The position numbers and the translations under genes were made by a program. Positions 240-11,991 of a stretch of DNA of 42,940 nucleotides are shown piece by piece (position 1 is the first letter of the stretch; each line of letters opens with the position of its first letter). The notes beneath the pieces were generated by a model. The model was given only the letters and a program-made list of their open reading frames with translations, had not been told where the DNA came from and made no database searches. The DNA comes from Treponema sp. (lineage in GTDB: Bacteria > Spirochaetota > Spirochaetia > Treponematales > Breznakiellaceae). The DNA lies in the NCBI GenBank assembly GCA_009784975.1, contig WQXG01000022.1, positions 1 to 42,940 on the forward strand, given 5' to 3'.

Positions 240-1586
240 TTACAATACATTTCCATGCATATCAAATAAACCCCAAGCATTTGCCCTCTTATGCCCTACT
301 GGATGTGATCTATCATTACTATTATCTACATACCAACCGGTACTATCGCTTATAGTTGCACCGGTATTATATGCAGTTGTTGTACCGGCTCGGCATGCGT
401 ATTCCCATTCCGCTTCTGTCGGCAATCTGTAACCATTTGCATTAATATTCCAGGTTACATTCGTTCCATTTATAGTATACGCAGGAGTAAGACCTTCTCG
501 TTGGCTTAATTTGTTGCAATACTCTACCGCATTAAACCAGCTAACATTTTCCACAGGCAGATTATCTCCTTTAAAATAACTTGGGTTCGTTCCCATCACT
601 TCCTGATATTCTTTCTGCGTTACCTGATATTTTCCCATGAAAAAAGAGCCTACCGTTACCTGTCGTTGTATTTCATCACTATTTCTTCCCGGCTCATTTG
701 CAGGGCTTCCCATTGTAAAAGTACCGCCATTAATGCGTACCATGTTATCAGAAACAGGGCGCTGCTGTTCCGTTTGGGTTTGTTGTGTTCCAGTAGACTG
801 CTGTCGTGCTCTTGGATTTAGTGAGTAATAATCCAAACTGATAATACTCCCATCATGATACGGGCGCTGTCTATTGCTGGTCAGCCTTAGGGTTTCGCGG
901 GTTATGCTTCTTATTAATATGCTAATGTCTTCGGTATTTTCCATGTTCTGCAAGAATGCTTCGGCAAAAGGGCTGTTGCGTTTTCCAGCGGTTCCGTCAG
1001 CGGCAACATCGTTGGCTGCTGTGGAATAGATAATAAATAAATCCGGCGGTAAATTATTTACTACGCCTAAACCTCTGGATAAGCTGCGGCTGCTTCCGGT
1101 TCTGTTTCTAAAAGGATTATTTCTGCAGGCATCCAATACTACAATATTGATTTTATTTCGCGCTATTTTATCAAATGATTCTATTAACCTGTTTACAGGA
1201 TACGAAGAAAATTTAGCGGAGACATCGTCTGTATCATCTACATCAACAGGTAATAGAAAGTTCTCACCGTCTATCTCTACACCATGTCCTGCAAACCAGA
1301 AAAATCCTTCATTGTTTCTGTTCTGCGCAAGCCTCTGCAAATAATTGCTTATTACCCTGTTCATCGCTGCATTACCAAGATTTGTATGCAATTCAACCTG
1401 ATAGCCAAGTGTACGTAATTTCGCCGCAATATCAGACGCGTCATTTACAGGATTTGCCAGCCTTTCAATTGTTGTGTAGCTGCCATTTCCAATGACTAGG
1501 GCATATCTTTGCTGGGCGGATACATTTTGCTGTACGCAAACGCATAATATAATTGCAATAAATAAAAACGACAATGCTTTTTTCAT
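240..1586 (-). CDS. Exported caspase-like protein with truncated FGE-sulfatase domain
   Basis: 448 residues from ATG 1586. A TTG six bases upstream is also in frame, but the AAGGTGAG ribosome site spaces better to the ATG. The signal peptide is about residues 1-24 (ends NVSA). The caspase p20-type domain is about 26-255, with His near 101 in FAGHG and Cys near 154 in VVLDAC, the expected dyad of peptidase C14. A Gln-rich linker leads to an FGE-sulfatase (SUMF1-like) domain from about residue 278. The FGE domain stops abruptly at DMHGNVL, whereas the paralogue at 4992-6491 continues DMHGNVWEWCWDW for another 53 residues. The missing part holds the RGGSW core and the ligand-binding surface, so this may be a decaying or recombined copy. 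Its caspase half is the most divergent of the six, while its FGE part nearly matches that of 4992-6491. Confidence 0.8.
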   Translation of the reverse strand: MKKALSFLFIAIILCVCVQQNVSAQQRYALVIGNGSYTTIERLANPVNDASDIAAKLRTLGYQVELHTNLGNAAMNRVISNYLQRLAQNRNNEGFFWFAGHGVEIDGENFLLPVDVDDTDDVSAKFSSYPVNRLIESFDKIARNKINIVVLDACRNNPFRNRTGSSRSLSRGLGVVNNLPPDLFIIYSTAANDVAADGTAGKRNSPFAEAFLQNMENTEDISILIRSITRETLRLTSNRQRPYHDGSIISLDYYSLNPRARQQSTGTQQTQTEQQRPVSDNMVRINGGTFTMGSPANEPGRNSDEIQRQVTVGSFFMGKYQVTQKEYQEVMGTNPSYFKGDNLPVENVSWFNAVEYCNKLSQREGLTPAYTINGTNVTWNINANGYRLPTEAEWEYACRAGTTTAYNTGATISDSTGWYVDNSNDRSHPVGHKRANAWGLFDMHGNVL

Positions 1587-1602
1587 AACCAATACTCACC
1601 TT

Positions 1603-3360
1603 TTAAAAATTAAATTTGAATGAAGCCATAGAGGGCACAGCCACCCTGGCTACAGCCATAGCATTATTAATTTCCTGTAAAACATTATTATTATTAAAGC
1701 TAACTATAACCCAGCAAGTATTATCGTTAGCATAATCAAAATCTACAACTCTTGAACCTGTAAGCTCAGAACGTGACAGCGTTATAGCTATTGTTTCTTC
1801 AAATAATTTTACATCATTATTCGAAAACGAGCTTAAAGCTGCAGAATAATCCAGAAATGCATCTCTGACAATTGCGATTATTTGCCGCGAAATTTCTTCT
1901 CGTGCACGAACTGTAGCAATGGTACGAGATTGAGCCTGAGTAGCCATTCTTGCAGAACCTACGCCAACCATTGAGTCTACTGGAGAGTTTCTGATAGCTT
2001 CTCTTACAAAAACCGGTGAATTCCTGATGACTCCTCTTACAAAAAGAGCAATATTACTATTAACATTTTTATCAGTAGGTATTGATTGTAATGAAGCCAT
2101 AGCGGGTACGGCCAGCCTGGCTACATTCATAGCATTATTTATTTCCTGTAAAACATTGTTCTTATTAAAGCTAACTATAACCCAGCAAGTATTATCGTTA
2201 GTATAATCAAAATCTACAACTCTGGCGCCTGTAAGTTCAGAACTTGTCAGCGTCTTAGCCATAGTTTCTTCAAATAATTTTACATCATTAGTCGAAAACG
2301 AGCCTAAAACCGCGGCATAATCCCGAAATGCATCGCTGACAATTGCGATTATTTGCCGTGAAATTTCTTCTCGTGCACGAACTGTAGCAATGGTACGAGA
2401 TTGACCTTGTGTAGCCATCCTTGCAGAACCAACACCAACAATTGAATCTGCTGGAGATTTTTTTATGGCTTCTCTTACAAAAACAGGAGAATTTCTGATG
2501 ACTTCTCTTACAAAAATAATTCTATCTTCAGGAATTGTTTGAACTGGCTGCGTAACAGTGGTTGTATTTGTCGTCTGTGTTCCAGTTGTTTGCTGAGGCC
2601 GCGTGCCAAGAAAAGCTGATGTTGCGCCGGCAAATCTAAGTGATAGTTCGGGATGCTGTGTTCCGTTTGTTTCATTTATTACATTTCCCATTGTTTTATC
2701 GAATACTTCAAAGACACTTAAGCCGGGAGTTCTAAGGTTGTTAAGAAGATGGTTGGTAAATAGCCCATTGCGTCCTGTTCCGTCTGCTGCTGTTGAATTG
2801 GCGCCGGTGGCATACATTACAATGCTTCCGCTAGGAGCACGGCTTGCAACAGAAAGCCCGCGGCTGCCGCTTCGCGCCCAGCCAAAGGGATTATCTCGGC
2901 AGGCATCAAGAACAATCATATTAAGTTCATTTCCGGCTTCGCTAAGGCTGTCTAAAACAAATTGCAGTGAAACTGCTCTATCTCGCAGTTGTGTTTCTGT
3001 GCGGATGTTATCAGCAACAACAGGAATCAGGTAATTCTCTCCGCTGGATTGCACTCCGTGTCCGGCAAAAAAGAAAAATCCGTAGGTGTTACGTGATACG
3101 CTAAGTCTGCGTTTAAGATTTAATACTGCGGTCTCCATTTGTTCAAGGTTACCGTTCAGCACTTTTTCTACGGTAAACCCAAGGTTACGCAAAGCAGTTT
3201 CCATGTCGTTGGCATCATTAACGGGATTTGCAAGGCGGGAAATTCCTGTGTAGTTTCCGTTACCGATTACCAGCGCGTGTTTCTGCTGAGCGGAAATATT
3301 TTGGTGTACGCAAACGCATAATATAATTGCAATAAATAAAAACGGCAATGCTTTTTTCAT
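1603..3360 (-). CDS. Exported caspase-like protein with duplicated LPP20-like module
   Basis: 585 residues. Signal peptide about 1-24 (NISA|QQ), then a caspase-like domain with His in FAGHGVQ and Cys in IVLDACRDNPF. A Thr/Gln-rich linker follows at about 260-275. The rest is two copies of a ~157-residue unit starting near 'VIRNSPVFVREAI' and containing GVGSARMATQ, RTIATVRAREEISRQIIAIV and DFDYxNDNTCWVIVSFN. This pattern resembles the LPP20 lipoprotein family, a periplasmic or outer-membrane fold; that assignment is by pattern only. The start has a TTAGGAG ribosome site overlapping the end of the upstream gene (9-bp gap), so the two are probably co-transcribed and coupled. The protein is predicted to be periplasmic; its substrate is unknown. 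Confidence 0.85.
   Translation of the reverse strand: MKKALPFLFIAIILCVCVHQNISAQQKHALVIGNGNYTGISRLANPVNDANDMETALRNLGFTVEKVLNGNLEQMETAVLNLKRRLSVSRNTYGFFFFAGHGVQSSGENYLIPVVADNIRTETQLRDRAVSLQFVLDSLSEAGNELNMIVLDACRDNPFGWARSGSRGLSVASRAPSGSIVMYATGANSTAADGTGRNGLFTNHLLNNLRTPGLSVFEVFDKTMGNVINETNGTQHPELSLRFAGATSAFLGTRPQQTTGTQTTNTTTVTQPVQTIPEDRIIFVREVIRNSPVFVREAIKKSPADSIVGVGSARMATQGQSRTIATVRAREEISRQIIAIVSDAFRDYAAVLGSFSTNDVKLFEETMAKTLTSSELTGARVVDFDYTNDNTCWVIVSFNKNNVLQEINNAMNVARLAVPAMASLQSIPTDKNVNSNIALFVRGVIRNSPVFVREAIRNSPVDSMVGVGSARMATQAQSRTIATVRAREEISRQIIAIVRDAFLDYSAALSSFSNNDVKLFEETIAITLSRSELTGSRVVDFDYANDNTCWVIVSFNNNNVLQEINNAMAVARVAVPSMASFKFNF
1620..2561 (-). repeat. Internal tandem duplication, period 471 bp
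   Basis: Two adjacent copies (about 1620-2090 and 2091-2561) inside the caspase/LPP20-like gene keep the reading frame (471 = 3 x 157). Long stretches match base for base, for example around 1686-1735 versus 2157-2206. This indicates a fairly recent duplication of one C-terminal module. Confidence 0.85.
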
Positions 3361-3369
3361 AATTTACTC

Positions 3370-4872
3370 CTAATTCACCGCAGAGCGTACCGGACGAATG
3401 CCAATGTGTCTATAACGATCGGTAGGCTCATGCCAATTACGATTCGCGGAACGAGCAAAGATTGCTTCATTGAACCAACTGCCGCCGCGCAGCACACGAT
3501 GAGTCCCGAAAGATGCTCCTGTTGGATTCGTCAATGGACCTGATTGATATTGAGATTCATACCAATCCCAGCACCATTCATAAACATTCCCATGCATATC
3601 AAATAATCCCCAGGCATTAGCACGTTTAAAACCAACGGGATGAGTCCTGCCATCGCTATTAACATCATACCAGCCTGTACTATCGTTAATAACAGCTCCA
3701 GTATTGTATGCAGTAGTAGTCCCGGCGCGGCATGCGTATTCCCATTCTGCTTCTGTTGGTAATCTATAACCATTTGCATTAACATTCCACGTTACATTCG
3801 TTCCGTTTATCGTATACGCAGGCGTAAGACCTTCCCTTTGACTTAACTTGTTGCAGTACTCCACAGCTTCATACCATGTTAAACTATCTACAGGCAGATT
3901 ATCTCCCTTAAAAAAACTGGTATTTGTTCCCATCACATCCTGATATTCTTTTTGCGTAACCAGATTTTTTCTCATATAAAAAGAACTTACAGTTACTTGC
4001 CATTGCTGTTCATTTGATCTTCGCCCCGGTTCATTTTCAGGGCTTCCCATTGTAAATGTACCGCCGTTTATTCGAACCATATTATCAGGCACAGGACGCT
4101 GCTGCTCTGTTTGTCTCGGCTGCGTCCCAAGAAACGCAGTTCCAAAATATTGGCTGTAAATAGCAGGCACCTGCTGCCTGTTACTTGCCTGTGAAACCGC
4201 TGCTCCGGTACGGTAGAAAATGTCTCTTACATTAATGCCCGGGGTTTTTAATTGGGTTAATAAATGGCTAGTAAAAAGACCATTCCTTCCTACGCCGTCT
4301 GATGCAACAGAACCTGCGCTTGTCGCGTATACGATTATACTATCCGCTGGTTGATTTGCTACTACAGCAAGACCGCGGTTCATACTGCGGCTCCACGATG
4401 CCGGAAAATCACGGCAGGCATCCAGCACCACAATATTTAGTTCATTACCGGCATCGTTTAATTCTGCAAGCATTGTTTGAACAGAAATTGATGTATCTCC
4501 CAGAAAATTTGCGCTTGGTATATTGGCATTTGCAGGAATTAAGAAATTAACGCCATTATGCTGCAAGCCATGTCCTGCATAATAAAAAAATCCGTAACTG
4601 CTTTTTGATACAGAGAGCCGGTTTTTAAGACGGATAATACCATCTGCCATTTGCGCGCGGTTTCCGTCTAATATTTTATCTACAGTAAAACCCAGCGCCT
4701 GTAAAGCCGCTGTTATGTCGTTGGCATCATTTATGGCGTTGGGTAACGAGCCAAAAGAAGTGTAGTTTCCGTTACCTATTACAAGCGCGAATTTTTGCTG
4801 GGCGGAAATATTTTGCTGAATGCAAACACATAATATAATTGCAATAAATAAATACGGCAATGTTTTTTTCAT
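3370..4872 (-). CDS. Exported caspase-like protein with complete FGE-sulfatase domain
   Basis: 500 residues, start supported by AAGGAG seven bases upstream. Signal peptide about 1-24. The caspase-like domain has His in YYAGHGLQ and Cys in VVLDACRDFP. The FGE-sulfatase/C-type-lectin-fold domain is about 265-500, with GYRLPTEAEWEYACRAG, DMHGNVYEWCWDWY and the closing RVLRGGSW...GIRPVR. The residues facing the ligand in DGR variable proteins are present, but their codons include TGG, GAG and GAA. They are therefore not explained by adenine mutagenesis of AAY codons, so this copy is treated as fixed. The two cysteines that FGE enzymes use for catalysis are not seen in the RGGSW segment, so a binding role is more likely than formylglycine formation. 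Confidence 0.85.
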   Translation of the reverse strand: MKKTLPYLFIAIILCVCIQQNISAQQKFALVIGNGNYTSFGSLPNAINDANDITAALQALGFTVDKILDGNRAQMADGIIRLKNRLSVSKSSYGFFYYAGHGLQHNGVNFLIPANANIPSANFLGDTSISVQTMLAELNDAGNELNIVVLDACRDFPASWSRSMNRGLAVVANQPADSIIVYATSAGSVASDGVGRNGLFTSHLLTQLKTPGINVRDIFYRTGAAVSQASNRQQVPAIYSQYFGTAFLGTQPRQTEQQRPVPDNMVRINGGTFTMGSPENEPGRRSNEQQWQVTVSSFYMRKNLVTQKEYQDVMGTNTSFFKGDNLPVDSLTWYEAVEYCNKLSQREGLTPAYTINGTNVTWNVNANGYRLPTEAEWEYACRAGTTTAYNTGAVINDSTGWYDVNSDGRTHPVGFKRANAWGLFDMHGNVYEWCWDWYESQYQSGPLTNPTGASFGTHRVLRGGSWFNEAIFARSANRNWHEPTDRYRHIGIRPVRSAVN

Positions 4873-4903
4873 AATTTACTCCTTATCATTTTTTCACTAC
4901 TCA

Positions 4904-4983
4904 CGGAACCATTCCTGCTCCATGCCCAGCCTCCGCTCCCCTTCGGGTCGCTCCGGCACGGGCATTCCGCCAGAATGGTTCCG
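4904..4983. repeat. GC-rich hairpin just downstream of the putative variable region
   Basis: Outer arms CGGAACCATTC (4904-4914) and GAATGGTTCCG (4973-4983) pair perfectly over 11 bp. Inner arms ATGCCC (4922-4927) and GGGCAT (4960-4965) pair over 6 bp, enclosing a GC-rich loop. By count, 41 of 60 bases in 4921-4980 are G or C, unlike the AT-rich surroundings. It begins 8 bases beyond the stop codon of 4992-6491. Hairpins or cruciforms at this position, after the initiation-of-mutagenic-homing site, are a known requirement for efficient DGR retrohoming. A transcription terminator is the alternative, but there is no clean T tract, only TTTTTTC farther on. Confidence 0.7.
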
Positions 4984-4991
4984 CAGAACTC

Positions 4992-5114
4992 TCAGGGGCG
5001 CACCAGCCGGAAGCCAAGAAAGTCGCCCCTGGAGTACGGGAAGTAGTAGTTGAGCCGGTAGGCTGAACGAGTGTTCGTCGCCGAATCGTACCAGCTGCCG
5101 CCGCGTAGCACGCG
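4992..5114 (-). other. Putative DGR variable region (VR)
   Basis: Codons 460-499 of the caspase-FGE gene. Candidate mutated codons, by position of the + strand triplets: 5088-5090 (Y), 5085-5087 (D), 5058-5060 (Y), 5052-5054 (L), 5049-5051 (N), 5046-5048 (Y), 5043-5045 (Y), 5040-5042 (F), 5034-5036 (Y), 5031-5033 (S), 5025-5027 (G), 5022-5024 (D) and 5019-5021 (F). All thirteen are NNY (eleven end in C, two in T), as expected if each descends from AAC or AAT in a template repeat. Interleaved fixed codons encode RGGSW, ATNTRSA, P, R and LGFRLVRP. The template and reverse transcriptase are not in the window, so this is a pattern-based call. Confidence 0.7.
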
Positions 5115-6491
5115 GTAAGAGCCAGAGACCGCTCCCGTTGGATTATTCTGGGCTCCGCTCGGATAAGTGCCATACCAGTCCCAGCACCACTCCCATACAT
5201 TTCCATGCATATCAAATAACCCCCATGCATTTGCCCGTTTATGCCCTACAGGATGTGTTCTACTATTACTATTATCTCTATACCAACCGGTACTATCGCT
5301 TATATTTGCTCCGGTATTGTATGCTGTTGTTGTACCGGCTCGGCAAGCATATTCCCATTCTGCTTCTGTCGGTAATCTGTAACCATTTGCATTTATATTC
5401 CAGGTTACATTCTCTCCATTTACGGTATACGCAGGCGTAAGACCTTCTCGTTGGCTTAATTTGTTACAATACTCTACCGCGTTAAACCAGCTAACAGTTT
5501 CCACAGGCAGATTATCTCCTTTAAAATGACTTGGGTTCGTTCCCATCACTTCCTGATATTCTTTCTGCGTTACCTGATATTTTCCCATGTAAAAAGAATT
5601 AACAGTTACCTGTCGTTGTATTTCATCATCGTATCGTCCCGGTTCATTTGCAGGACTTCCCATTGTAAAAGTACCGCCGTTAATGCGTACCATGTTATCA
5701 GGAACAGGGCGCTGCTGTGTTGTTTGTGTTTGCTGTGTGCCGGTTGTTTGCTGAGGTCTGGAACCAAGATAGGCGCTGCCGAAAAAACGCAATGAGATTT
5801 CCGGATGCTGTGTTCCGCCGGAGGAAGTCAGTACATCCTGTCCTGTTTTATTAAATAATTCCTGTACATTTATTCCGGGGGTTCTTAAGTTTTTAAGAAG
5901 TTCCGTTGTAAAAAGCCCATTTCTGCCGGTTCCGTCTGCTGCGGTTGAATTTGCGCTTGTCGCATACACTACTATGCTTCCAACAGGCGCGCTTACCATT
6001 GCAAGTCCGCGGCTGCCGCTGCGTGACCAGCCAAAAGGATTATCACGGCATGCGTCAAGCACAATTATATTCAGATCGTTTTTTGCATCGTTTAGTTCGC
6101 TCATCATAAATTGAACAGAAACTGCCCTTTCCCTAAGAGCATTCTCGCTTGGTATATTTGCATTCACCGGTAAAAGATAATTTATACCGCCGGATTGCAC
6201 ACCATGCCCTGCATAAAAGAAAAATCCATAACTGTTTTTTTCTATACTGAGCCTGTTCTTTAATCTGCTTATAGCGTTTTCCATTTGTTCAAGATTACCA
6301 TCCAGCACTTTGTCTACAGTAAAACCCAGGCTCTGCAAAGCCGTTGCCATATCATTGGCATCGTTTACGGGATTTCTTAATTTGGAGATACTGGTATAGT
6401 TACCATTACCAATTACAAGCGCGAATTTTTGCTGGGCAAAAAGCGCTGTGCATACTGTAAGCAATAAAAGAAAAACTAATGTTTTTTTCAT
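4992..6491 (-). CDS. Exported caspase-FGE (C-type-lectin fold) protein, putative DGR variable protein
   Basis: 499 residues, start supported by GGGAGG six bases upstream. Signal peptide 1-19 (ALFA|QQ). The caspase-like domain is about 22-245, with His96 (YAGHG) and Cys148 (IVLDAC). A Gln/Thr linker is followed by an FGE-sulfatase-type C-type-lectin fold, about 263-499. The last 40 residues (RVLRGGSW ... GFRLVRP) have the arrangement of DGR variable regions such as T. denticola TvpA: a fixed frame interrupted by positions occupied here by Tyr, Asp, Tyr, Leu, Asn, Tyr, Tyr, Phe, Tyr, Ser, Gly, Asp and Phe, every one encoded by NNC or NNT. Base composition changes sharply to GC-rich near residue 445. 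No Cys is present in the RGGSW segment, arguing against FGE enzyme activity. Inferred role: an exported peptidase whose ligand-binding surface is diversified. Confidence 0.85.
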   Translation of the reverse strand: MKKTLVFLLLLTVCTALFAQQKFALVIGNGNYTSISKLRNPVNDANDMATALQSLGFTVDKVLDGNLEQMENAISRLKNRLSIEKNSYGFFFYAGHGVQSGGINYLLPVNANIPSENALRERAVSVQFMMSELNDAKNDLNIIVLDACRDNPFGWSRSGSRGLAMVSAPVGSIVVYATSANSTAADGTGRNGLFTTELLKNLRTPGINVQELFNKTGQDVLTSSGGTQHPEISLRFFGSAYLGSRPQQTTGTQQTQTTQQRPVPDNMVRINGGTFTMGSPANEPGRYDDEIQRQVTVNSFYMGKYQVTQKEYQEVMGTNPSHFKGDNLPVETVSWFNAVEYCNKLSQREGLTPAYTVNGENVTWNINANGYRLPTEAEWEYACRAGTTTAYNTGANISDSTGWYRDNSNSRTHPVGHKRANAWGLFDMHGNVWEWCWDWYGTYPSGAQNNPTGAVSGSYRVLRGGSWYDSATNTRSAYRLNYYFPYSRGDFLGFRLVRP

Positions 6492-6507
6492 GAAACCTCC
6501 CGTATAA

Positions 6508-8712
6508 TTAATGTATTGTTAAATCAACTATATCAGCTTTTAATAACTGCCATTTTTGCCAAGTACCAGAACTTATAAATTCAGAATTGATTTTAATAAA
6601 TTTAGATATATTCATTTTGGTTGTAGCTTGAGCAGTGCGTTCATTGCCGATTATTGTGCTGTTTATTGTTGATTTAACCTGCTCTGCTAAATTAGTAACT
6701 GATCTAATCGTAGCCATGACATTTTGTATCTCCATACTTGAACTGTCAGCAGTCCCAATCCCCCATATTAAATCTTCTGGCGGCATTTCGCTTATCCATA
6801 CAGGCACACTTATTGAATTTACTGCAGTCTGCCTAACAACATAAGGTCTGTTTTGCGTAAAACGATTTCCATTAAAGTTAATATTTTTTTGTAGAACCTC
6901 TCTTGAAGCCGGGTATGTATTCTCATATTTTGCATAGTAACTAAAACTTTCGAATTCTCGAATAACTCCAGGTCTTGCATTGCTAATGGAATAAAGACCG
7001 TAAAAATGATACTTTTTATCCTGTTCAATCTGAATATGTCTTGCTTCTTCCTGAAATGAAAGACTCTGTATATTAATCTGAGTTATACATTTTAAATTTG
7101 TTTCAAAAGAGCTTGTCCCATAATAAGTGTTTGAAGATATATTAGTTACATTAGTATAATTATTATTTATGAATGTACCATTTATAGTGCTCCCCAACCA
7201 TAAAAAAATTTGCATTCTAACATTTTGTTCAGCATGAACGGATAATTCATTTGTATTGTCCTTAGAAACTGCTTTTGCGGTAAAATATATACGATCATTT
7301 CTTAATTGATAATCCCTAAAAAACACCGGAAAATCAGGTCTTGGATTAGCTCTGCCTCTGGATGAATAGGTATATAAAACATATAGTGTTCCATCTTCAG
7401 CCATCCATTCAGCTTGTTGATATAATCCGGTACTGTTATTATTTGCATTAATTTGCATATTATATTCTAAAGATTGGTTATTACCATCATAAAAATCAGT
7501 AGACATTACTTGAATTTCAGCATTTTTATAAATAGAAAATTGTATAAGCACATCCATCATAGCGCCGGATTTTGCTTCCAGATAATTTTCATAGTTTTCC
7601 ATTCTTTCCGATCTGCCTACAAAATAAGCCATTCGGTCATTTGTTTGCGGCAGTGTCTGCACCCAATTTGGCACTATATATTCCATTATGGATATATTTG
7701 CAGTTTGTCCCTGACGTACCATAACCGCCTGCGGCGCTTTTACAACTTTGCCATCATCTTTTTTTACTGCAACTTCTGTACTTCCAACGCTTACATCTGT
7801 AACGGTTAGTGTCCCGCCTGCTTTAATTCTGCTGCCAATTTCCACATTATCTACCATTACAATTCCGGCAATTTCAGATGTAATTTGTATGCTTCCAACA
7901 GCGGCTGAAGCGGAAGCTGACGAAGAAGATACAACAGTTACAGTTTGAGCAGAAGCAGACTGAGATGCGGCTTGACCTGTTCCGCCCAGATAAGCTGTCC
8001 CAAAAAATTGAGTATATACTGCCGGGATTTGCTGTCTTCTGCTTGCCTGAGAAACTTCTGCTCCTGTTCTGCGAAATATTTCGCCTACTTCCAAACCCGG
8101 AATTAGATTTCTTAAAAGCTGAGTTGTAAAAAGGCCATTTCTGCCGGTTCCGTCAGAAGCAACCGAACCTGCGCTAGTTGCGTAAACAATGATGCTTTCT
8201 GCCGGCTGACGGCTTATCAGCCCAAGCCCGCGGCTGGCGCTGCGGCTTAATCCAAAAGGATTGTCACGGCATGCATCCAGCACAATAATATTAAGGCTGT
8301 TACCCGCGTCGTTTAACTCATCCAGTATTGATTGTACTGCAACCGCCCGGTATCTTAAACGATTTTCACTGTCAATATTTATATCTACAGGAAGCAGATA
8401 ATTCTCCCCGTTAAACTGAACCCCATGTCCTGCATAAAATAAAAAACCATAGGAATCTTTAGAAGCGCTAAGCCGATTTCTTAACCTTGTAACCGCGCTG
8501 TCTATATGTTCTTGTGTAGCATTCAATAGTTTATCTACAGTAAACCCTAATCTTTGTAAAGCTGCTGTAATGTCATTGGCATCATTTACAGGGTTTCTTA
8601 ATTTAGATATAGTTGTATAATCCGCATTACCAATTACAAGCGCGAATTTTTGCTGGGCAAAAAGCGCTGTGCATACTGTAAGCAATATAAGAAAAACTAA
8701 TGTTTTTTTCAC
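6508..8712 (-). CDS. Exported caspase-like protein with PEGA and LPP20-like C-terminal modules
   Basis: 734 residues from a GTG start at 8712 (GGAG ribosome site 8 bases upstream; the paralogous leader MKKTLVFL begins exactly here). Signal peptide about 1-19. Caspase-like domain about 22-240 with His in YAGHGVQ and Cys in IVLDACRDNPF. A Ser/Ala-rich linker precedes a PEGA-type beta domain at about 268-345 (VGSIQITSEIAG, VEIGSRIKAGG, VAVKKDDGK). A long C-terminal part follows, with a segment near 355 (MAYFVGRSERMENYENYLEA) and a final segment (PVWISEMPPEDLIWGIGTAD ...) that both look like the start of LPP20-like modules. The upstream gap to the DUF4384-like gene is 20 bp and the downstream gap to the VR gene is 16 bp, so a shared transcript is likely. 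Confidence 0.8.
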   Translation of the reverse strand: MKKTLVFLILLTVCTALFAQQKFALVIGNADYTTISKLRNPVNDANDITAALQRLGFTVDKLLNATQEHIDSAVTRLRNRLSASKDSYGFLFYAGHGVQFNGENYLLPVDINIDSENRLRYRAVAVQSILDELNDAGNSLNIIVLDACRDNPFGLSRSASRGLGLISRQPAESIIVYATSAGSVASDGTGRNGLFTTQLLRNLIPGLEVGEIFRRTGAEVSQASRRQQIPAVYTQFFGTAYLGGTGQAASQSASAQTVTVVSSSSASASAAVGSIQITSEIAGIVMVDNVEIGSRIKAGGTLTVTDVSVGSTEVAVKKDDGKVVKAPQAVMVRQGQTANISIMEYIVPNWVQTLPQTNDRMAYFVGRSERMENYENYLEAKSGAMMDVLIQFSIYKNAEIQVMSTDFYDGNNQSLEYNMQINANNNSTGLYQQAEWMAEDGTLYVLYTYSSRGRANPRPDFPVFFRDYQLRNDRIYFTAKAVSKDNTNELSVHAEQNVRMQIFLWLGSTINGTFINNNYTNVTNISSNTYYGTSSFETNLKCITQINIQSLSFQEEARHIQIEQDKKYHFYGLYSISNARPGVIREFESFSYYAKYENTYPASREVLQKNINFNGNRFTQNRPYVVRQTAVNSISVPVWISEMPPEDLIWGIGTADSSSMEIQNVMATIRSVTNLAEQVKSTINSTIIGNERTAQATTKMNISKFIKINSEFISSGTWQKWQLLKADIVDLTIH

Positions 8713-10179: not shown

Positions 10180-11991
10180 TTACTCTTTAATAAATTTCCC
10201 CTGCGAATTAAGGCGCGCGATAATAAACGGCCTATCATACCAGTCGCTTACGCCGGAAAGCGTTATTGCAAAACCATAATCCGGCGCGTTTGTTATTGCT
10301 GTTACAAGGGATGCTTGTGCAATATTGCCCCCCCTTAACGAAGAATCTGTTAATTCTTCACGCCAAATAAGAGAACCATCTGCTATGTTTATCGCGTCTA
10401 TAAACGGAGTTCCGTTTCTTCCATGAGTTTCTCTTGCCCGCATTGTACCTGCAAGAATAATACGTCCGTTTTCGCTGTCCAAAATTGCATCCTGATAATA
10501 AGAATTGGAAGCTGGCTGATTTACAAGCCTCCATAACTGTCTGTTGCCGGAATCGTATTTTGCCGCGAATGCAAAAACTTCTTCGCCTTTAAACTCTTCT
10601 CCAATAAGGTAATACGAGCCGTCTTTATCTGTAATTATTTTAAAAAACAATAAATCTCTGAAGGTCGCATTTATATTTTGTATTCTTCCCGCATTGTTAA
10701 TTTCCGCTACATAGGATGTTAGAACCGGTGCATCTGTAAATCCTGCAACAAGCAAACTGTCCCGCAATGGATAATAAGAAGCAGCTCTTATTTCTCCGTA
10801 TTTAGCGCCGGGTGCCCTTGTCTCAAAATCGCTTCCTGTTAATTCCCATACAGCAGTAAAACGTGAATTTGCAAAACGAACGGCTCTAATATAAGCTAAA
10901 TCTCCGGCAGCGCTGTTTTCCGCTCCCCCTCCTGCAAAAAACCAATTTGAAGCATCTTTTTTCGCAGCGGTATTAAATTTCGCAGACCTTGCATTTCTAT
11001 TGTTGGACGGATCAAGCGTTCCCCGTAAAACTCCGTCATCCCCATGAATTCTGGCAATTGGCAGAAAACTACCATTAGACAATTCATTAAAACCGGCAAT
11101 TAAATACCCGCCGTCTATCTTATCTGCATATGTTAAATTAAAACCATCTCCGTTTCTGATTTTTGATGCAATTTCGGTACCTGCAGAGTTATAAGTATTT
11201 CTGTTTACTCCCTGATCTGTCTGGTAAAACAAGTGGATCTGCCTGTCTTCTGATACAACATTCATAGGACTGGAAGTATCCTGTATTGTTTTAGCCCATG
11301 CCGGCTCACCGGCACGGTGTAAAGGACGGATATCTGTGAGGGTGACGGTATTAGCGGTGTACTCAAATGAATATAAATAATTTCTTTTTAACGGTAAAGG
11401 CAGTGTAAAAGTTATATCTCTTCGGCTGTCATGAATATAATAATTCTCTCTCCCTGAATCCCTGCTAATATCAAAAACTGCTGTCTCGCCGGGCGAAAAT
11501 TCCCTCTTACTTGAAGCTACAAGAAAATTTTCTGATGATGGAGTTCCTCTTTGTTCAATTAACGGGTTAATTGTTCCGCCTGTTCTAAAAGTTATCGCGC
11601 TGCCTGCATTATTTTTTATTGCTAAATAAATTCCGTAATTTTCCCTGAATTGCGGTTCATTTATGGTAATTGTATTCTGATTTTCCCGTATTGTCCGGTG
11701 ATCACCTTTTACATACAAGGGAACATTACTGCTTAAAGGTATCTCATACCATATATCAAATTCTCTTGATAATATTCCGCTTTCTGTAAAAAGCTCAACT
11801 GTACCGTTTGAATATTTTCCGATACGCTGTTTTTCATCAAAATAAACATTGTAACAAGTAGGATTTTCTACTCTTATAGAGATCCCCTGTGCGCTATGTA
11901 TTGTAACTGTTTGGCTAGTATTAACATTATCAGAACTTGCACAAGAGAACACCAAAACAACTAATATGATATATAAAAACAACTTTTTCAT
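10180..11991 (-). CDS. Lipoprotein with a probable beta-propeller C-terminal half
   Basis: 603 residues; GGAGG ribosome site. The leader ends in the lipobox VFSC (Cys near residue 17), so it is predicted to be lipidated. Residues about 30-215 are a beta-rich region of unknown type. From about 240 onward, blade-like repeats of the type 'GGYLIAGFNELSNGSFLPIARI', 'DSLLVAGF...SYVAEINNAG', 'GSYYLIGEE...FAAKYDSGN' and 'GRIILAGTMRA...PFIDAIN' suggest a beta-propeller. No enzyme motif is visible. It sits between the FGE-fold lipoprotein and the DUF4384-like gene with gaps of 14 and 25 bp. A binding or scaffold role at the cell surface or periplasm is an inference. Confidence 0.75.
   Translation of the reverse strand: MKKLFLYIILVVLVFSCASSDNVNTSQTVTIHSAQGISIRVENPTCYNVYFDEKQRIGKYSNGTVELFTESGILSREFDIWYEIPLSSNVPLYVKGDHRTIRENQNTITINEPQFRENYGIYLAIKNNAGSAITFRTGGTINPLIEQRGTPSSENFLVASSKREFSPGETAVFDISRDSGRENYYIHDSRRDITFTLPLPLKRNYLYSFEYTANTVTLTDIRPLHRAGEPAWAKTIQDTSSPMNVVSEDRQIHLFYQTDQGVNRNTYNSAGTEIASKIRNGDGFNLTYADKIDGGYLIAGFNELSNGSFLPIARIHGDDGVLRGTLDPSNNRNARSAKFNTAAKKDASNWFFAGGGAENSAAGDLAYIRAVRFANSRFTAVWELTGSDFETRAPGAKYGEIRAASYYPLRDSLLVAGFTDAPVLTSYVAEINNAGRIQNINATFRDLLFFKIITDKDGSYYLIGEEFKGEEVFAFAAKYDSGNRQLWRLVNQPASNSYYQDAILDSENGRIILAGTMRARETHGRNGTPFIDAINIADGSLIWREELTDSSLRGGNIAQASLVTAITNAPDYGFAITLSGVSDWYDRPFIIARLNSQGKFIKE

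Follow-up and report, generated by a model that had tools for sequence, protein, structure and literature searches.

The 3′ end of a caspase-FGE gene in the 42,940-nucleotide stretch of Treponema sp. DNA analysed here (the window) is very likely the product of a diversity-generating retroelement (DGR). The convincing evidence comes from the comparison of four copies of this end in the genome, rather than from its codon pattern. The features of the window referred to below are as follows.

4992..6491, minus strand: caspase-FGE target protein, 499 aa (Pfam)
4992..5136, minus strand: very probable DGR variable region (VR), a GC-rich cassette common to contigs C7, C65 and C36 (sequence comparison)
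4983..4991, minus strand: conserved post-stop segment, GAGTTCTGC (sequence comparison)
4903..4984, minus strand: imperfect hairpin directly after the VR, with an outer stem of 13 bp (DNA z -4.73; RNA z -5.8)
3370..4872, minus strand: tandem paralogue of the caspase-FGE type with no cassette at its end, used as internal control (Pfam and alignment)
240..1592, minus strand: third caspase-FGE gene, without a variable end (Pfam)

The 499 aa protein combines a Peptidase_C14 domain (residues 22-234; PF00656, E 1.9e-35) with an FGE-sulfatase domain (residues 265-498; PF03781, E 3.5e-57). The His-Cys dyad of the caspase-like domain is present, as His96 (GHG) and Cys148 (DACR), and the N-terminus, MKKTLVFLLLLTVCTALFAQQ, resembles a signal peptide when judged by eye. 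Read from its sequence, the protein looks exported, and its caspase-like part would act as a peptidase. Among PDB sequences, the best match is T. denticola TvpA (variable protein 1, 2y3c; E 1e-41), in an alignment that runs through the VR; together with the PF03781 match, it suggests that the C-terminus adopts a C-type-lectin fold. The RVLRGGSW...GFRLVRP frame pointed out at the gene end in a preliminary description is indeed there, RVLRGGSW starting at residue 460 and GFRLVRP occupying residues 493-499. The gene is part of a tandem row of five caspase-domain genes (240-8712, all on the minus strand; domains by Pfam). Three of the five include an FGE domain and two have no other Pfam match. 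One of the three, 240..1592, is truncated: its frame stops at MHGNVL and the variable end is missing.

In the assembly (2.6 Mb in 73 contigs, 95% complete), the window segment has four DNA matches besides itself. In three of them, on C7, C65 and C36, this cassette again extends from GGGAGCGGTCTC to beyond the stop codon, and the proteins that carry it are otherwise different: 863 aa with LRR_5, 485 aa, and 1157 aa with MBG_2 and GLUG, respectively, each ending in FGE. The N-termini of these three proteins look like lipoprotein signals in our own reading. The fourth match, on C1, is more distant (70%). The four cassette copies contain 36 variable columns. When the template (TR) of a relative, G005, is used as the ruler, 30 of the 37 columns with A vary versus 6 of the 105 others (Fisher p 2.7e-18); with the template found on contig C41 of the same genome as the ruler, the corresponding figures are 26/36 and 10/106. 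Six of the 36 variable columns lack A in both reference templates, and in three of these six an A occurs in one VR or more. Sorted by codon position, variable columns make up 19/47 first, 13/47 second and 4/48 third positions. Throughout the six pairs of copies, third positions in the cassette are identical at 42-45 of 46-47 sites, whereas those in the upstream FGE body agree at 65-82 of 143-172 (44-52%). The tandem paralogue shows the reverse, with a body similar to that of the window gene (78% identical) and a divergent end (54%). This contrast between cassette and body, and its reversal in the paralogue, indicate that the cassette arrived by copying and that its changes fell mainly on particular bases.

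The cassette lies where the preliminary description had placed it but is longer than the last 40 codons, running from 5136 (GGGAGCGGTCTC) to about 4983, beyond the stop codon. It was also rightly described as richer in GC than the gene body (0.63 in the last 147 bases versus 0.43), and the difference is sharper at third positions (GC3 0.78 versus 0.35). The thirteen variable codons said to be all NNC or NNT were not listed, so the 15 codons that have A at positions 1 and 2 in the G005 template were taken in their place; 13 of the 15 are of this form, CTA (462) and ACG (472) being the exceptions. Since NNC and NNT account for 50% of body codons, this pattern is by itself no more than moderately surprising.

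DGR homing requires a hairpin, according to work on other DGRs. Both a conserved segment and a hairpin are found after the window VR. The stop codon is followed by GTTCTGC in C7, C65 and C41, and the G005, G025 and G023 templates have GCCCTGC; the segment at 4983..4991 likely represents the end of the homing site. The hairpin sequence of the window has a single other match in the genome, after the C7 VR. Seventeen stretches were folded, 14 of which follow FGE VRs. The z value is -4.2 or lower in 8 of the 14; in the other six (C7, C36, C1, two of G005, and G015) the hairpin is weak (z -1.2 to +0.4). The remaining stretches gave z values of -4.7 (after the Lcl_C VR described below), -1.9 (after the C41 template) and +1.2 (after the paralogue end).

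The assembly yielded a single reverse transcriptase (RT; PF00078). It maps to C1 and is of the DGR type, with IGNLTSQ and YVDD. It belongs to a second, complete DGR; a further template lies on C41.

L007:9774-12660: complete second DGR on C1, with Lcl_C target, bAvd, TR and RT
L007:9774-10646: Lcl_C target of the C1 DGR
L007:10755-11096: bAvd of the C1 DGR (E 3.2e-21)
L007, about 11304-11424: A-rich TR of the C1 DGR
L007:11497-12660: RT of the C1 DGR (IGNLTSQ and YVDD)
L169:547-1730: C41 unit, FGE target and TR with no RT alongside
L169:547-1377: C41 FGE target, 276 aa, with a signal-peptide-like start judged by eye
L169, about 1588-1725: C41 TR, found by querying with the G005 template

The genome does contain a DGR-type RT next to an A-rich template, both on C1, but this template serves a different class of target: in the Lcl_C TR/VR pair, 19 of 42 adenines are changed versus 2 of 79 other bases. 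We rejected the C1 template as the parent of the cassette, as it matches the Lcl_C VR instead of the FGE VR. In the C41 pair, 17 of 33 adenines are changed versus none of 103 other bases; the C41 template was likewise rejected as the parent, its constant positions being different (GGGTCGTGG versus GGCAGCTGG, and others). Inverted repeats flank the C41 unit (L169:280-473 and 1982-2160). They belong to a GC-rich dispersed repeat with 68 genome matches (40 of 64 candidates scored), which leaves the idea of C41 as a special mobile unit unsupported. Just downstream of the C1 RT lies an FGE gene (L007:13436-14458) with an NNC-rich end representing another cassette type.

The near-identical template expected beside an RT failed to appear for the window cassette in the 95%-complete assembly: two patterns with 3 mismatches allowed matched VR-type sites only, assembly-wide (5 sites and 4 sites). 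IMG/VR, scanned once with an exact pattern, contained no match. Nor did the assembly yield an HRDC-type RT or an HRDC accessory: the G005 RT query matched the C1 RT alone, and the G005 HRDC query matched no more than part of a 620 aa frame on C33. VR queries missed the C41 template that the relative's TR query recovered, which shows that templates can escape similarity searches; therefore, the absence of a cognate TR rests mainly on the two mismatch-tolerant patterns. With 95% completeness and 73 contigs, this absence is unproven and the core may simply be unassembled.

When 39 genomes of the genus (this one included) were searched with the C1 RT, 13 gave a match. Of the 12 other genomes with a match, seven supplied RT loci, eight in all, and those of G006 and G027 (L154-L156) fall outside the analysis. 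In five genomes (G004, G005, G009, G013 and G023), an FGE target, an RT and an FGE-type template occur on one contig, and in two of these five, G005 and G013, Pfam confirmed an HRDC gene. All six RTs checked have IGNLTSQ together with YVDD or YMDD. Comparison of TR and VR showed changes at 18/35 A versus 3/98 non-A in G005, 17/31 versus 0/103 in G025, and 22/37 versus 1/97 in G023. Flanks included, template A accounts for 26 of 37 VR-TR differences in G004 and 23 of 26 in G009. The G009 template (L150, VR near 5310-5445) has TAA where the VR has TGA in the target frame, and the target ends inside the VR. The G025 unit (L158:2241-3546) consists of target and TR in a layout like that of C41, with no RT detected in a genome that is 67% complete. 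RT-less units of this kind, on C41 and in G025, may be served in trans.

A caspase-FGE target within a complete cis locus is found in the same genus, in the MAG Treponema sp. isolate Co191P3bin59 (WQTD01000043.1, hereafter L054), which contains the G013:C43 stretch letter for letter. As annotated from the sequence, the gene order is caspase-FGE, HRDC, RT, TR.

L054:9838-11442: caspase-FGE target, 534 aa
L054:11552-12010: HRDC protein
L054:12007-13008: RT
L054:12989-13129: TR, overlapping the end of the RT gene

Between VR and TR of this locus, 19 of 34 adenines are changed and none of 107 other bases. The caspase domain retains His and Cys (GHA, DACR). L054 offers a complete related locus where adenine mutagenesis could be tested directly on a caspase-lectin protein. 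Altogether, TR/VR differences confined almost entirely to A were found in six pairs, five of the FGE type and one Lcl_C. The initial proposal of a DGR variable region on the window's caspase-FGE protein finds support in the restriction of variation to A columns in the four copies, in the TR/VR pairs that relatives and contig C41 provide for this family, and in L054. Of 127 FGE ends counted in 97 loci, a total that contains duplicates and one or more template frames, 28 belong to frames with GHG and DAC motifs; this filter misses some caspase-FGE genes, such as that of L054 with its GHA. Most of a set of 80 loci were considered for their FGE ends only.

Because neither a cognate TR nor an HRDC-type core was found in the assembly, the window gene is taken to be a remote (trans) target or a leftover. 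We favour the former and propose that the end of the gene is, or recently was, rewritten in trans by a template and an RT that would lie elsewhere, unassembled or since lost. RNA of the TR would be reverse-transcribed by a DGR RT misreading adenines, and the cDNA would replace the VR between its conserved flanks, beside the hairpin that follows the stop codon. The outcome would be an exported-looking caspase-like protein whose FGE domain, of C-type-lectin fold, has about 15 randomised residues. Most likely, the lectin tip would serve to recognise a changing ligand (a phage, neighbour, protist or host surface) and so aim or trigger the peptidase. Of the adenine mutagenesis of a recognition face originally suggested, the VR anatomy and the A-restricted variation can be read in the sequences, as can a complete cis locus in the same genus; that the mutagenesis acts in trans and is current, that a ligand is bound and that the peptidase is active are inferences.

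On balance, diversification of the window VR is somewhat more likely than not to be still ongoing. A less probable but serious alternative is that this lineage has lost the HRDC-type core (RT, accessory and TR), so that the four VRs preserve, unchanged, what earlier mutagenesis produced. The failure to find the cognate TR, the HRDC-type RT and the accessory in the assembly fits such a loss, and excerpts of PMC4891356 describe T. denticola strains in which targets persist although the core is missing, as well as a remote target in SP32 that is likely a leftover. The core may, however, be hidden by the incompleteness of the 73-contig assembly, and the near identity of non-A columns across the four loci (6/105 variable) argues for recent copying. 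The loss of the core and its continued action in trans imply the same identity for the VR and differ only on present activity. Gene conversion or recombination of a common 3′ cassette among FGE paralogues, with no retroelement involved, is very improbable: it would produce the sharp cassette border and the jump in GC on different gene bodies, but would not confine differences to template-A columns or spare third positions, and TR/VR pairs of the family do exist, among them the C41 pair and that of L054, which accompanies an RT and a caspase-FGE target. Lowest in probability is ordinary diversifying selection on an exposed loop, which would suit the outside exposure of the corresponding TvpA segment (PMC4891356, in excerpt) but, acting on residues, would not conserve third bases (4/48 variable) next to a body in which they agree at 44-52%.

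A broader version of action in trans, in which one template re-arms four exported proteins (the caspase-like protein and three lipoprotein-like FGE proteins) and the single Avd-type RT also serves the RT-less units, seems rather unlikely to us. If true, it would make the retroelement a genome-wide diversification service, beyond a single cassette.

TvpA/HRDC DGRs with remote targets in T. denticola and orthocaspase DGR targets in cyanobacteria are already known; a spirochaete caspase-FGE DGR target with a complete cis locus adds a variant to these. The excerpted parts of PMC4891356 describe a system like the present one in its C-terminal FGE/C-type-lectin VR, in its remote targets, in the retention of targets without the core, and in an HRDC accessory that overlaps the RT gene, as in L054. 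They mention no caspase-fused target, whereas the window target is a caspase fusion. The cyanobacterial variable proteins, as portrayed in excerpts of PMC7517822, likewise join a caspase-like domain, an N-terminal orthocaspase, to a C-terminal C-type-lectin VR and include remote members; most DGR variable proteins there are predicted to be cytosolic, and 4 DGR-associated and 9 remote ones have signal or membrane segments. Unlike them, the window protein is spirochaetal, has a signal-peptide-like start and belongs to a family whose studied cores carry HRDC. A further parallel is provided by DGR-diversified putative antigen sensors (PMC10907252, in excerpt), in which lectin-fold VRs, FGE-type targets among them, accompany effector or defence modules. 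These loci typically have STAND, VMAP or MoxR partners and are best explained by trans activity; one target combines a caspase-like CHAT with a TIR domain. Among the titles listed from the open-licence literature, none was recognised as dealing with a spirochaete caspase DGR target, and an earlier report may be in print; in the available portion of PMC8144416, the words caspase, FGE and termite have 0 occurrences each.

The same domain pair appears in PMC3501461, the excerpted text of which reports a metacaspase-FGE-sulfatase architecture in 33 (4.9%) of 671 putative metacaspases and considers that FGE might be a formylglycine modifier. The presence of a DGR VR in the FGE domain of the window protein offers another reading of the pair, with FGE as a recognition tip instead. 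In gut spirochaetes, an exported-looking caspase-like protein would thereby be linked to a recognition surface that is programmable. Two caspase-FGE genes of L081 have FGE bodies that are 90% identical (585 bases aligned) and differ at 33 of their last 150 bases. Spirochaetia bacterium PG1894_164, the source of L081, L096 and L104, has several caspase-FGE paralogues with alike FGE bodies and very different ends, and should be a good system for diversification tests.
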